Assembly (NCBI RefSeq): GCF_000177375.1
Contig: NZ_ADFR01000015.1
Coordinates: forward strand, 1-42,063
Length of the DNA stretch: 42,063 nucleotides
Direction of reading: 5' to 3'
Origin: Bulleidia extructa W1219
GTDB taxonomy: Bacteria; Bacillota_I; Bacilli_A; Erysipelotrichales; Erysipelotrichaceae
In this document: one piece after another, positions 34,041 to 36,631 of the stretch
Layout of the letters: each line of letters begins with the position of its first letter
Numbering within the stretch: the stretch's first letter is position 1
Notes under the pieces: generated by a model
Databases searched by the model: none
Told to the model about the DNA's origin: nothing
The model's input: the letters and a program-made list of their open reading frames with translations, nothing else
Translations under genes and position numbers: made by a program

Positions 34041-34622
34041 TTATTTTCTTTCTTCAATCTCATCTCTTCTATAATACTCTTCTTCTAAAATACCCATAGT
34101 AATAACATCATAATACCGCCCACGATGGTACGAAGCTGCTCTTCTCACACCTTCTTTCACAAAACCCACTTTTTCATAGACATGAATCGCTGAATCATTA
34201 TAAGAAAATACATTCAATTCTACTTTATGGGCATTCAATTCTTCAAATGCCAACTCAATTCCTTTTCTCATTGCCTCGGATCCATATCCATGTCCTTGAT
34301 AATCCGGCCCAATAAAAATACCTAATGTAGCAATTCTTTCCGGTAAAGTTAAACCAAAGCAGGATAGATGACCCACCACTTTTCCTTCATGATTTTCAAT
34401 TGTTAAACCAAAACCATCTTTTTTTTCATTACTTGACCATTCCATAAATAACTGATCATTTTTTTCTTCATAAGTTGGAAACAAGCGGGAACGATTCCCA
34501 AGCAATAAAGAATCTTCATTCCACCATTTTGCAAAAATAGCCCGATCACTTTCCGTTGTTCCTCTTAAACGAATTTTATCTCCTTGCAATAATTGATTTC
34601 GATATTGAATTAGTTCCTTCAT
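34041..34622 (-). CDS. GNAT family acetyltransferase (RimJ/RimL-like)
   Basis: A 193-residue N-acetyltransferase. The acetyl-CoA pyrophosphate loop is GPDYQGHGYGSEAM (motif Q/RxxGxG/A), preceded by ATLGIFI and followed by LNVFSYNDSAIHVYEKVGFVKEGVRR, typical of the RimJ/RimL/SpeG branch. Acceptor unknown. The ATG at 34622 has GAGG 6 nt upstream; a GTG four codons earlier is part of that site. Its own promoter lies after the terminator at 34653. Confidence 0.9.
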   Translation of the reverse strand: MKELIQYRNQLLQGDKIRLRGTTESDRAIFAKWWNEDSLLLGNRSRLFPTYEEKNDQLFMEWSSNEKKDGFGLTIENHEGKVVGHLSCFGLTLPERIATLGIFIGPDYQGHGYGSEAMRKGIELAFEELNAHKVELNVFSYNDSAIHVYEKVGFVKEGVRRAASYHRGRYYDVITMGILEEEYYRRDEIEERK

Positions 34623-34652
34623 ATTAAACCTCACTATTCTAAGTATAACCTA

Positions 34653-34679
34653 AAAAAGAGTGTCCGTTTGACACTCTTT
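34653..34679 (-). terminator. Intrinsic terminator of the downstream peptide module
   Basis: On the minus strand AAAGAGTGTC-AAAC-GGACACTCTTTTTT. Two further small hairpins precede it: GCGAG-GTAA-CTCGC (34683-34696) and TGGAAT-ACGAG-ATTCCA (34700-34716). It ends the transcript of repeat copy 1. Confidence 0.85.
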
Positions 34680-34734
34680 CTTGCGAGTTACCTCGCTGTT
34701 GGAATCTCGTATTCCAAACCACTTATTTTATCAA

Positions 34735-34855
34735 CTATTCAATTTTTCCTAACTTAAATTGTACATGGGTATATACCCCCTTGCCTGTTTTCTCTAATTC
34801 TTTTAGCCAGGCCACTAAAAGAACGCTACCTTAATTCGAGAAGAATCTCCTTCAT
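34735..34855 (-). CDS. Short-peptide frame of copy 1; possible +1-frameshift product of 39 residues
   Basis: With AAAGGAG 8 nt upstream, the ATG at 34855 opens MKEILLELR, stopping at TAG (34826-34828) in the context AGG-TAG-C. One base forward a frame continues as SVLLVAWLKELEKTGKGVYTH to a TAG at 34735-34737. A +1 slip at AGG would give a 39-residue amphipathic peptide. Alternatively the 9-residue peptide is a leader and the rest starts at an inner GTG, or the frame is simply broken. The frame break is the same in both copies. Function unknown. Confidence 0.4.
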
Positions 34856-34947
34856 AACTTGCGCTCCTTTCTGTCCAAAGGGGACACTTTTTACACCTTC
34901 ATCATACCTCTTTTTTATTCTTTTCCAAGTCTGTTTTTTAAAAATTA
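34755..34947 (-). repeat. 193-bp direct repeat, copy 1 (promoter plus short-peptide module)
   Basis: Nearly identical to 35480-35672 in the same orientation; I count about five substitutions and a difference in one G-tract (5 against 7). Each copy contains a full promoter, an AAAGGAG ribosome binding site, a 9-codon frame and a longer frame one base on. Weaker similarity continues about 30 nt further. There is no transposase and no terminal inverted repeat, so it is a local duplication, not an insertion sequence. Confidence 0.9.
34901..34928 (-). promoter_or_regulatory. Promoter of repeat copy 1
   Basis: On the minus strand -35 TTGGAA (34923-34928), 16-nt spacer, -10 TATGAT (34901-34906). 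Confidence 0.65.
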
Positions 34948-35007
34948 TTTGATGTATAATTATTCTATGAGCCATCTAGAAAAGAGGGGCTTTTTTAATC
35001 ACATCAT

Positions 35008-35175
35008 TTACTTAAAAATTGAAAGAAAAACCATACACAAAGCAATACTCATCAGTATTATCACCGCCAACTGTACATACTGATTTTTAATAAACCGATA
35101 ATGCTTAATTTTCTCATGTAAAAAAAGACTAAAAATAATTGCCGATAAAACTAATGCATACTCTACCCAAGACAC
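35008..35175 (-). CDS. 55-residue two-helix membrane protein, possible immunity protein
   Basis: A GTG start at 35175 with GGGAGGGG about 5 nt upstream opens a 55-codon frame beginning MSWVEYALVLSAIIFSLFLH, a basic loop EKIKHYRFIKNQ, then a second hydrophobic helix LAVIILMSIALCMVFLSIF. It overlaps the 3' end of the bacteriocin-like gene by 47 nt in another frame. Small two-helix membrane proteins placed directly after a bacteriocin gene are often immunity proteins; that role is an inference. I know of no named homologue. Confidence 0.6.
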   Translation of the reverse strand: MSWVEYALVLSAIIFSLFLHEKIKHYRFIKNQYVQLAVIILMSIALCMVFLSIFK

Positions 35176-35434
35176 AAAACCACCCCTCCCTTGGATAACA
35201 TCTATATGTTAACCACCAATTAACATCCAAAATAACACCATTGCCAGGTCTATTAGCATTATAATCCACTGTATCTGCAATAGAATAGGCATAGAGAGCC
35301 GACAATCCGCTTGGCAAAGATCCTATCCCACCAAAGATTGCCCCAGCCAACGCAGCCGCTCCTGCATCAACATGTGCATTCATTCTGACATTATATGCAT
35401 AATCTCTAGCTGAGAAAACTTTCGATCTATACAT
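35129..35434 (-). CDS. Small Gly/Ala-rich bacteriocin-like peptide
   Basis: A 101-residue protein with a charged N-terminal part (MYRSKVFSARDYAYNVRMNA), then a Gly/Ala-rich hydrophobic stretch AGAAALAGAIFGGIGSLPSG and a motif NRPGNGVILDVNWWLTYR near residues 65-82, a layout seen in unmodified bacteriocin-like peptides. There is no double-glycine leader or Sec signal, so export is unclear. GGGAGAGGGAG precedes the ATG. It follows the peptide frame of repeat copy 2, whose promoter probably drives it, and overlaps a possible immunity gene. No transporter or protease gene is adjacent. Function is an inference. Confidence 0.55.
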   Translation of the reverse strand: MYRSKVFSARDYAYNVRMNAHVDAGAAALAGAIFGGIGSLPSGLSALYAYSIADTVDYNANRPGNGVILDVNWWLTYRCYPREGWFCVLGRVCISFIGNYF

Positions 35435-35458
35435 AGCAACTCCCTCTCCCCCTTTACT

Positions 35459-35582
35459 TCACACTTCCATGTAATCATCTAAATTGTACATGGGTATATA
35501 CCCCCCCTTGCCTGTTTTCCCTAATTCTTTTAGCCGGACCACTAAAAGAACGCTACCTTAATTCGAGAAGAATCTCCTTCAT
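35459..35582 (-). CDS. Short-peptide frame of copy 2; possible +1-frameshift product of 40 residues
   Basis: The ATG at 35582 (AAAGGAG 8 nt upstream) again gives MKEILLELR, then TAG (35553-35555) in the context AGG-TAG-C. The +1 frame continues SVLLVVRLKELGKTGKGGYI and, after a tract of seven G, ends YNLDDYMEV at TGA 35459-35461. Because copy 1 has five G, the two copies use different frames after the tract and so have unlike C-termini. The frame ends 24 nt before the ATG of the bacteriocin-like gene. Confidence 0.4.
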
Positions 35583-35672
35583 AACTTGTGCTCCTTTCTG
35601 TCCAAAGGGGACACTTTTTACACCTTCATCATACCTCTTTTTTATTCTTTTCCAAGTCTGTTTTTTAAAAAA
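35480..35672 (-). repeat. 193-bp direct repeat, copy 2
   Basis: Same orientation as copy 1 at 34755-34947 and about 97% identical by eye. It lies directly upstream of the bacteriocin-like gene and supplies its promoter. Recombination between the two copies would remove the bacteriocin-like and membrane-protein genes in one 725-bp deletion. Confidence 0.9.
35628..35655 (-). promoter_or_regulatory. Promoter of repeat copy 2 and the bacteriocin-like cassette
   Basis: On the minus strand -35 TTGGAA (35650-35655), 16-nt spacer, -10 TATGAT (35628-35633), identical to copy 1. GGGTATATACCC, a perfect 12-bp palindrome (35492-35503 and its equivalent in copy 1), lies downstream and could be an operator. 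Confidence 0.65.
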
Positions 35673-35752
35673 TATTTATTGTATAACGTTCTTATGGGCA
35701 TCCAAACAATGATGCACTTTTTTATTTTCAACTGCTTATCTTGATTAAAATT

Positions 35753-35800: not shown

Positions 35801-36631
35801 ATGATTCAAGATATTTATCCCTACATCATGATGAATCACTATCATCCTCATCAAAAGCCTAAGAAAGGGGATAAAATTTTTTACTTTGAAGATAATCAAG
35901 TCATTACAAAACCGGATGGACGCTTCTTTCAATATGAAGATTGTATTGAGAATGAAAGCTACATTTATTTGTTCTCAATGGGAACTCACCACTTCTTTCT
36001 AAGCGACATTCGCTCTTTACAACATAGTTCTTTTTCTGCCCGTCAACTTCGCTATTACGAACCTCAATTTCTTGGTTTTGCGGCTTTAACCGCTCTCCAT
36101 TTGTTCCACTGGTACACTGAAAATAAATATTGTGGGAAATGTGGTCATTTGTTTGAACTGGATCAAAAAGAAAGAGCACTTCATTGCCCTTATTGTCAAA
36201 ACATCGTTTATCCTAAAATTTCTCCTGCCATGATTGTAGCTATTCTTAATCAAAAAGGTCAATTATTAGTCACTAAATACGCTCAAGGAGACTATCAAAA
36301 ATACGCTTTAATAGCAGGCTATGCTGAAATAGGCGAAACCATCGAACAAACCGTTCTTCGAGAAGTTCAAGAAGAAACAGGATTAAAAGTTAAAAATCTT
36401 CATTATTATAAATCTCAACCATGGGGATTCTCTTCTTCTCTTCTCTTCGGTTTCTTTGCTCAAGTAGATGGTGATGAGACCATTCATATGGATCAACAAG
36501 AACTTCGTTTAGCTAGATGGGCTAATCCCCATGAAGACTTAGATACCAATGGTGTCGCTTCTTTAACAGGAGAAATGATAGAATTATTCTTAACCGGACG
36601 ATACAAAGATTTCTATACTTTGGAAAAGTAA
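35801..36631 (+). CDS. nudC: NAD(H) diphosphatase NudC
   Basis: A 276-residue Nudix enzyme that hydrolyses NADH (and, in known NudC, decaps NAD-capped RNA). The four-cysteine zinc ribbon is CGKCGHLFEL and HCPYCQN (about 111-133), followed by the Nudix box GYAEIGETIEQTVLREVQEETGL (about 167-189). The SQPWGFSSSLL sequence matches the NudC-specific SQPWPFPxS element with two changes. AAAAGGAGG gives a strong start. It ends in a bidirectional terminator shared with prfB. Confidence 0.93.
   Translation: MIQDIYPYIMMNHYHPHQKPKKGDKIFYFEDNQVITKPDGRFFQYEDCIENESYIYLFSMGTHHFFLSDIRSLQHSSFSARQLRYYEPQFLGFAALTALHLFHWYTENKYCGKCGHLFELDQKERALHCPYCQNIVYPKISPAMIVAILNQKGQLLVTKYAQGDYQKYALIAGYAEIGETIEQTVLREVQEETGLKVKNLHYYKSQPWGFSSSLLFGFFAQVDGDETIHMDQQELRLARWANPHEDLDTNGVASLTGEMIELFLTGRYKDFYTLEK

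Follow-up and report, generated by a model that had tools for sequence, protein, structure and literature searches.

The dual-function small RNAs of bacteria, such as SgrS, RNAIII, and SR1, are autonomous transcripts with an embedded small ORF. In leader-peptide attenuators and upstream ORFs (uORFs), such as the ilvB and fthC motifs, a short ORF with a Shine-Dalgarno (SD) sequence stands right before alternative RNA structures; these two uORF motifs control a fixed downstream gene (PMC11109978). The element described here recalls both kinds of system. Like the small RNAs, it is a putative autonomous transcript holding a small ORF and, like the attenuators, it places a short ORF with its SD directly before alternative structures, which suggests that translation and folding are coupled. 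However, unlike SgrS, RNAIII, and SR1, it has two ORFs (8 and 5 codons) split by a covarying pseudoknot and no known base-pairing target, and, unlike the ilvB and fthC motifs, it has a variable and often convergent next gene, a terminator of its own, and two consecutive mini-ORFs. On balance, we think it rather likely that a repeat in the window, i.e., the whole 42,063-nt stretch of DNA analyzed, makes up the 5′ portion of an autonomous RNA gene characteristic of the Erysipelotrichaceae, which has been duplicated here with a bacteriocin-like gene pair between the copies, and which would act as a translation-sensing switch. Comparison between genomes supports the parts, spacing, and conservation of this RNA gene, and its geometry suggests the switch.

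The repeat has two direct copies, at 34755-34947 and 35480-35674, both of them minus-strand, and occurs nowhere else in the 1.42-Mb genome. The copies are 96% identical, one of the differences being a 2-nt insertion within a G-run, and such identity over ~200 bp is far above chance; beyond them, weaker similarity continues for ~50 bp more on the upstream side. This upholds the initial annotation in its account of two near-identical copies in the same orientation and in its coordinates for copy 1, although the end that it gave for copy 2 (35672) moves to 35674; it was also right in placing between them a gene for a 101-residue protein and an overlapping one for a 55-residue, two-helix protein. 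The whole locus, i.e., both copies, the 101-aa ORF, and the overlapping 55-aa ORF, lies on the minus strand, with the RNA gene oriented divergently, upstream of nudC. It is flanked by GNAT (34041-34634) and nudC (35801-36631), with 83% and 85% protein identity, respectively, to G221, the complete genome of a sister species of the same genus; as both genes are conserved there, the insertion sits between otherwise syntenic genes. The features of the locus are:

34652-34947, minus strand: copy 1, a candidate complete RNA gene from promoter to terminator, matching the single copy of G221 along its whole length
34901-34928 and 35628-35655, minus strand: promoter-like TTGGAA-16-TATGAT of copies 1 and 2, kept in both and in G221
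34864-34869, minus strand: SD of mini-ORF1 in copy 1, AAGGAG
34826-34855 and 35553-35582, minus strand: mini-ORF1 of copies 1 and 2, MKEILLELR and a stop (consensus of the relatives MK[EK][IV]LL[EN]Y)
34797-34824 and 35524-35551, minus strand: hairpin P1 of copies 1 and 2, in copy 1 one nt past the stop of mini-ORF1
34783-34812, minus strand: pseudoknot of copy 1, P1 loop GCCTG (34812-34808) with CAGGC (34787-34783)
34749-34782, minus strand: SD-like AAGGGGG (34782-34776) and mini-ORF2 (34766-34749), MYNLS and a stop, of copy 1
34652-34679, minus strand: intrinsic terminator of copy 1, predicted from sequence and fold, AAAGAGTGTC-aaacg-GACACTCTTT-T run, kept in G221
35480-35674, minus strand: copy 2, covering two thirds of the RNA gene from its 5′ end (promoter, mini-ORF1, P1, and start of mini-ORF2)
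35459-35491, minus strand: altered mini-ORF2 of copy 2, MYNLDDYMEV and a stop, ending 24 nt ahead of the start codon of the 101-aa ORF
35129-35434, minus strand: Gly/Ala-rich ORF of 101 aa with a bacteriocin-like C-terminal domain (left-out profile E 1.7e-10)
35008-35175, minus strand: ORF of 55 aa with a GTG start and two hydrophobic segments, a putative immunity protein

G221 carries one copy of the element, between nudC and GNAT, which is 88% identical to copy 1 over 321 bp with the terminator included. As for the independent promoter and terminator of a dual-function small RNA, the terminator is clear in copy 1 and G221, and the promoter match is weak: by itself it is no better than shuffled sequence, conservation being its sole support. 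All the parts first assigned to each copy are present, namely this promoter-like match, an SD, and a short frame, MKEILLELR.

A homologous element adjoins nudC in more distant relatives too, where it was first spotted through a shared mini-ORF. A DNA pattern for mini-ORF1 matched 17 of 244 genomes of the family with zero control matches, and in a collection of 84,980 genomes its matches were confined to records of Erysipelotrichaceae or Erysipelotrichales. Part of ORF1 was built into this pattern, and another was therefore made from the 3′ motif alone; it matched 47 of the 244 family genomes versus 2 controls, including 28 of 42 genomes of the same genus, though many of the genomes in these counts are closely related and the counts are not independent. 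The relatives are mostly metagenome-assembled genomes. Upstream of the 3′ motif, mini-ORF1 was present at 29 of the 31 inspected places and, given that the search used the 3′ motif alone, this presence was not selected for; an ORF2 of exactly five codons was present at 24 of them. The Rfam 15 covariance models (E up to 1) yielded no match to the element in the window region or in the loci of 14 relatives, and ARAGORN detected no tRNA or tmRNA in nine element loci. What emerges is an RNA gene that is structured and conserved, occurs in at least 28 of the 42 examined genomes of one genus, and is not in Rfam. Identity with tmRNA, a single gene with tRNA-like ends and a resume ORF, was rejected on the ARAGORN result and because the genuine tmRNA of this genome lies elsewhere, at C15; a phage origin of the repeat was likewise rejected, the exact patterns being absent from viral contigs. 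None of the papers searched has these peptides or such an element in Erysipelotrichaceae, though the element is possibly an unnamed motif in the supplementary tables of RNA-discovery papers.

With uORFs the element shares a conserved short ORF with an SD and a stop; a constant same-strand downstream gene was not found, as the downstream genes differ between genomes. This bears on the idea that it is a cis attenuator of the same-strand gene downstream, here GNAT, in favor of which both the window and G221 have a terminator separating the RNA from GNAT on the same strand; with the downstream gene varying and being convergent in several genomes (G014, G069, G011, G638, G612, and G236), we hold this to be improbable. 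On the upstream side, several loci (L059, L057, L072, and others) have a common block, CCCAACAA..ATTATA, 60-120 bp upstream of mini-ORF1, which on the opposite strand reads TATAAT..TTGTTGGG and is perhaps a divergent promoter; it is found also where nudC is not the neighbor (L069).

The relatives share a plan comprising an SD and mini-ORF1, P1 at 0-5 nt past its stop, a pseudoknot, and then mini-ORF2, followed by 3′ hairpins and, in copy 1, the terminator. P1 has a mean energy of -13.3 kcal/mol versus -3.1 in shuffles and reaches -8.5 or lower in 31 of 32 cases; G082 fits P1 poorly. The pseudoknot joins the P1 loop to the segment just 5′ of GAGGNYAGACCAATG, the ATG of which starts mini-ORF2. 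Its two strands covary as TGCAGA/TCTGCA, GGCAGA/TCTGCC, CGCAGA/TCTGCG, TGTAGA/TCTACA, and TGCCTG/CAGGCA, with a combined p of ~3e-11 over pairs that are not independent, and from its end to the start of ORF2 there are 11-16 nt in all members where it was found. In the alignment, 88% of the pseudoknot cells are paired versus 24-52% when the partners are slid, a count that understates the pseudoknot of the window because alignment A5 shifts the window rows by one column; for a further hairpin, P2, the corresponding values are 94% versus 7-38%. Taken singly, the pseudoknot of copy 1 is not significant, being reached by 110 of 300 shuffles; those of G221 and other members are. In the array members G536 and G537, no clear pseudoknot was found.

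Mini-ORF1 has 8-9 codons and most commonly reads MKKVLLEY, MKEVLLEY, or MKEILLEIH at the inspected places, with MKEILLEY also common. Its Leu, Val, and Lys codons change synonymously, the variation at codons 2, 4, 5, and 6 is mostly synonymous, and all three stops are used, though this codon table was gathered through a peptide filter and is weaker than the survey of the 31 places. The mostly synonymous variation points to selection on the peptide sequence, as would be expected if the mini-ORF peptides themselves were the active agents, signals or regulators, with the hairpins merely governing translation or RNA stability. However, conservation of the pseudoknot, and of its distance from the second start codon, equals that of the peptide, and the ORF2 peptides vary in sequence while keeping their length, which makes this account rather unlikely in our estimate. 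The same bases also enter another proposal, that +1 programmed frameshifting at AGG_TAG_C yields a ~39-residue protein from each copy (MKEILLELR followed by SVLLVAWLKELEKTGKG...). This was attractive in the window copies, as the +1 frame stays open in G221 as well as in both of them, with two of the three G221 changes there synonymous. It was rejected as scarcely tenable since it is not kept in the relatives: in other members the frame is closed or stands in a different relation to ORF1, and in every one of them these bases go into P1 and the pseudoknot.

The reading that we favor, a switch that senses translation, takes its cue from this arrangement. A ribosome arriving at the stop of ORF1 would melt P1 and the pseudoknot, releasing the UCUGCA-type strand for P2, a competing hairpin predicted to lie beside the SD of mini-ORF2 or to contain it; the formation of P2 would in turn alter how accessible ORF2 is and how the 3′ domain folds. 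In most members the pseudoknot and P2 share one strand and would thus be mutually exclusive. There is no such overlap between CAGGC and GGGTATATACCC, the sequences of the window type, suggesting that the switch is not uniform across members; here the SD of mini-ORF2 in copy 1 falls partly within the hairpin GGGTATATACCC. With two tiny conserved ORFs, the coupling is directly testable by mutation. More tentatively, and with some doubt on our part, the element might represent a novel class of autonomous translation-sensing RNA, with two serial mini-ORFs coupled by a pseudoknot set against a hairpin over the second SD, action in trans instead of on a downstream gene, and a capacity to be captured as a leader by incoming genes like the bacteriocin-like pair here. 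Sensing of translation in trans, if true, would widen leader-peptide control past what is known in cis.

The two copies in the window appear to have fared differently. Copy 1 would have retained the complete RNA gene after duplication of the locus. Copy 2 stops short of the 3′ domain and the terminator, and its P1 loop reads GTCCG, which breaks the pseudoknot pairing; it has thus lost the terminator and probably also the pseudoknot. The altered loop, the longer ORF2, and the missing terminator are what would be expected had it given up the role of an RNA gene, and copy 2 would now be a promoter and leader for the cassette. Between promoter and SD, the two copies share 99% identity, as against 78-79% with G221, whereas over the 55 columns upstream about one third differ among copy 1, copy 2, and G221. 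This combination of a conserved core and a diverged upstream region suggests that the duplication is old and its core was later homogenized, or that there was recombination with a cassette-bearing relative. At the same site in G221, there is no 101-aa protein or cassette, so that a genome with a single repeat and without the cassette, as the initial annotation had proposed to look for, does exist among the relatives. Its suggestion that the cassette can be lost through recombination between the repeats is possible on this evidence, but G221 may equally show the ancestral state.

Duplication of the module is seen elsewhere too. Three genomes (G069, G011, and G638) have two mini-ORF1s ~105 bp apart, G075 has two motif copies spaced by 185 bp, and G536 and G512 have four mini-ORF1s each. 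The array of G536 (L069, 1614-1328, minus strand) reads MKKILLNY, MKEILLEI, MKEILLNY, and MKEILLEI, and that of G512 (L070, 1345-2059, plus strand) MKKVLLEY, MKEILLEF, MKEVLLEF, and MKEILLEF, with a hairpin after each. The toxin domain is absent from all other fetched element loci, tandem-module loci included, and these tandem modules therefore suggest that duplication is a habit of the element itself. One might instead suppose a mobile or MITE-like element that spread with the cassette, given the direct repeats around an insert that varies between species; this is very unlikely with two copies only in the genome, a chromosomal site beside nudC that is conserved in several species, viral contigs without matches, and compensatory changes in the stems.

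Neither the 101-aa nor the 55-aa ORF, which overlap by 47 nt, reaches any family cut-off in Pfam or NCBIfam. The 101-aa protein matches a Clostridioides plasmid protein, which is secreted, in its C-terminal domain, and further relatives come from Enterococcus gallinarum, Macrococcus, Weissella, Lactiplantibacillus, and a Bacilli genome. A profile of the six relatives, with the window sequence left out, recovers the C-terminal domain of ~85 aa in the 101-aa protein (E 1.7e-10), and in five of the six a small membrane ORF lies directly downstream, in the same position as the 55-aa ORF. These relatives bear out the description of the cassette as bacteriocin-like: the family is probably one of a bacteriocin plus its immunity protein. 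By this comparison, the 101-aa protein belongs, as a divergent member, to an uncharacterized family of secreted, plasmid-borne proteins, and the cassette adds a bacteriocin-like family common to plasmids of lactic acid bacteria, enterococci, and macrococci. Scans with protein patterns in the genome and viral collections did not find the toxin.

That the copies flank the cassette, with copy 2 just upstream, favors the view, in line with the initial annotation, of the repeat as a component of the bacteriocin system, a leader or regulator traveling with it. However, the element is widespread and unlinked to such peptides, an outcome that the initial annotation itself had named as refuting its reading: the other fetched element loci lack the toxin domain, the toxin relatives come from genomes outside the range of the element, and G221 carries the element without the cassette. 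We accordingly give this view very little credence.

The relatives are comparable to EntV/enterocin O16 (EF1097) of Enterococcus faecalis, in which the active helical domain is the C-terminal part of a secreted precursor (PMC9562342), and with which they share the layout of secreted precursor and C-terminal domain. The toxin-family profile had no sequence match in the PDB set, in which the presence of the EntV chain is unconfirmed, and an AlphaFold model of the 101-aa protein alone is all-helical at a pLDDT of 48, too poor for comparison. Unlike EntV, the 101-aa protein of the window has no signal peptide, and it lacks the N-terminal signal peptide and pro-region of its relatives. It begins within the domain, just past the WWGxR motif of the latter, with an in-frame stop close upstream, and has an 18-residue extension past the usual stop, which runs over the 55-aa gene. 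The missing signal peptide and the run past the usual stop suggest either a leaderless bacteriocin or a decaying gene, perhaps a truncated remnant that copy 2 has captured. Leaderless class II bacteriocins are small, lack a leader or signal peptide, and are encoded beside a small membrane protein. In adjoining a small membrane protein and lacking a signal peptide, the 101-aa protein resembles them (aureocin A53 and LsbB types; reviewed in PMC6131525), but it differs in its 101 residues, in having no Pfam or NCBIfam bacteriocin match, and in having relatives with signal peptides.

Two of the toxin loci show further features. In the Clostridioides plasmid pESS17301a (L007, 3440-5092), the secreted toxin relative is followed by an S8 peptidase, perhaps a processing protease, in place of a small membrane protein. 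In a Loigolactobacillus backii plasmid (L092, 1324-1960), a relative of the toxin precursor lies in several frames, as a signal-peptide ORF, a middle ORF, and a C-terminal piece, and is apparently broken.
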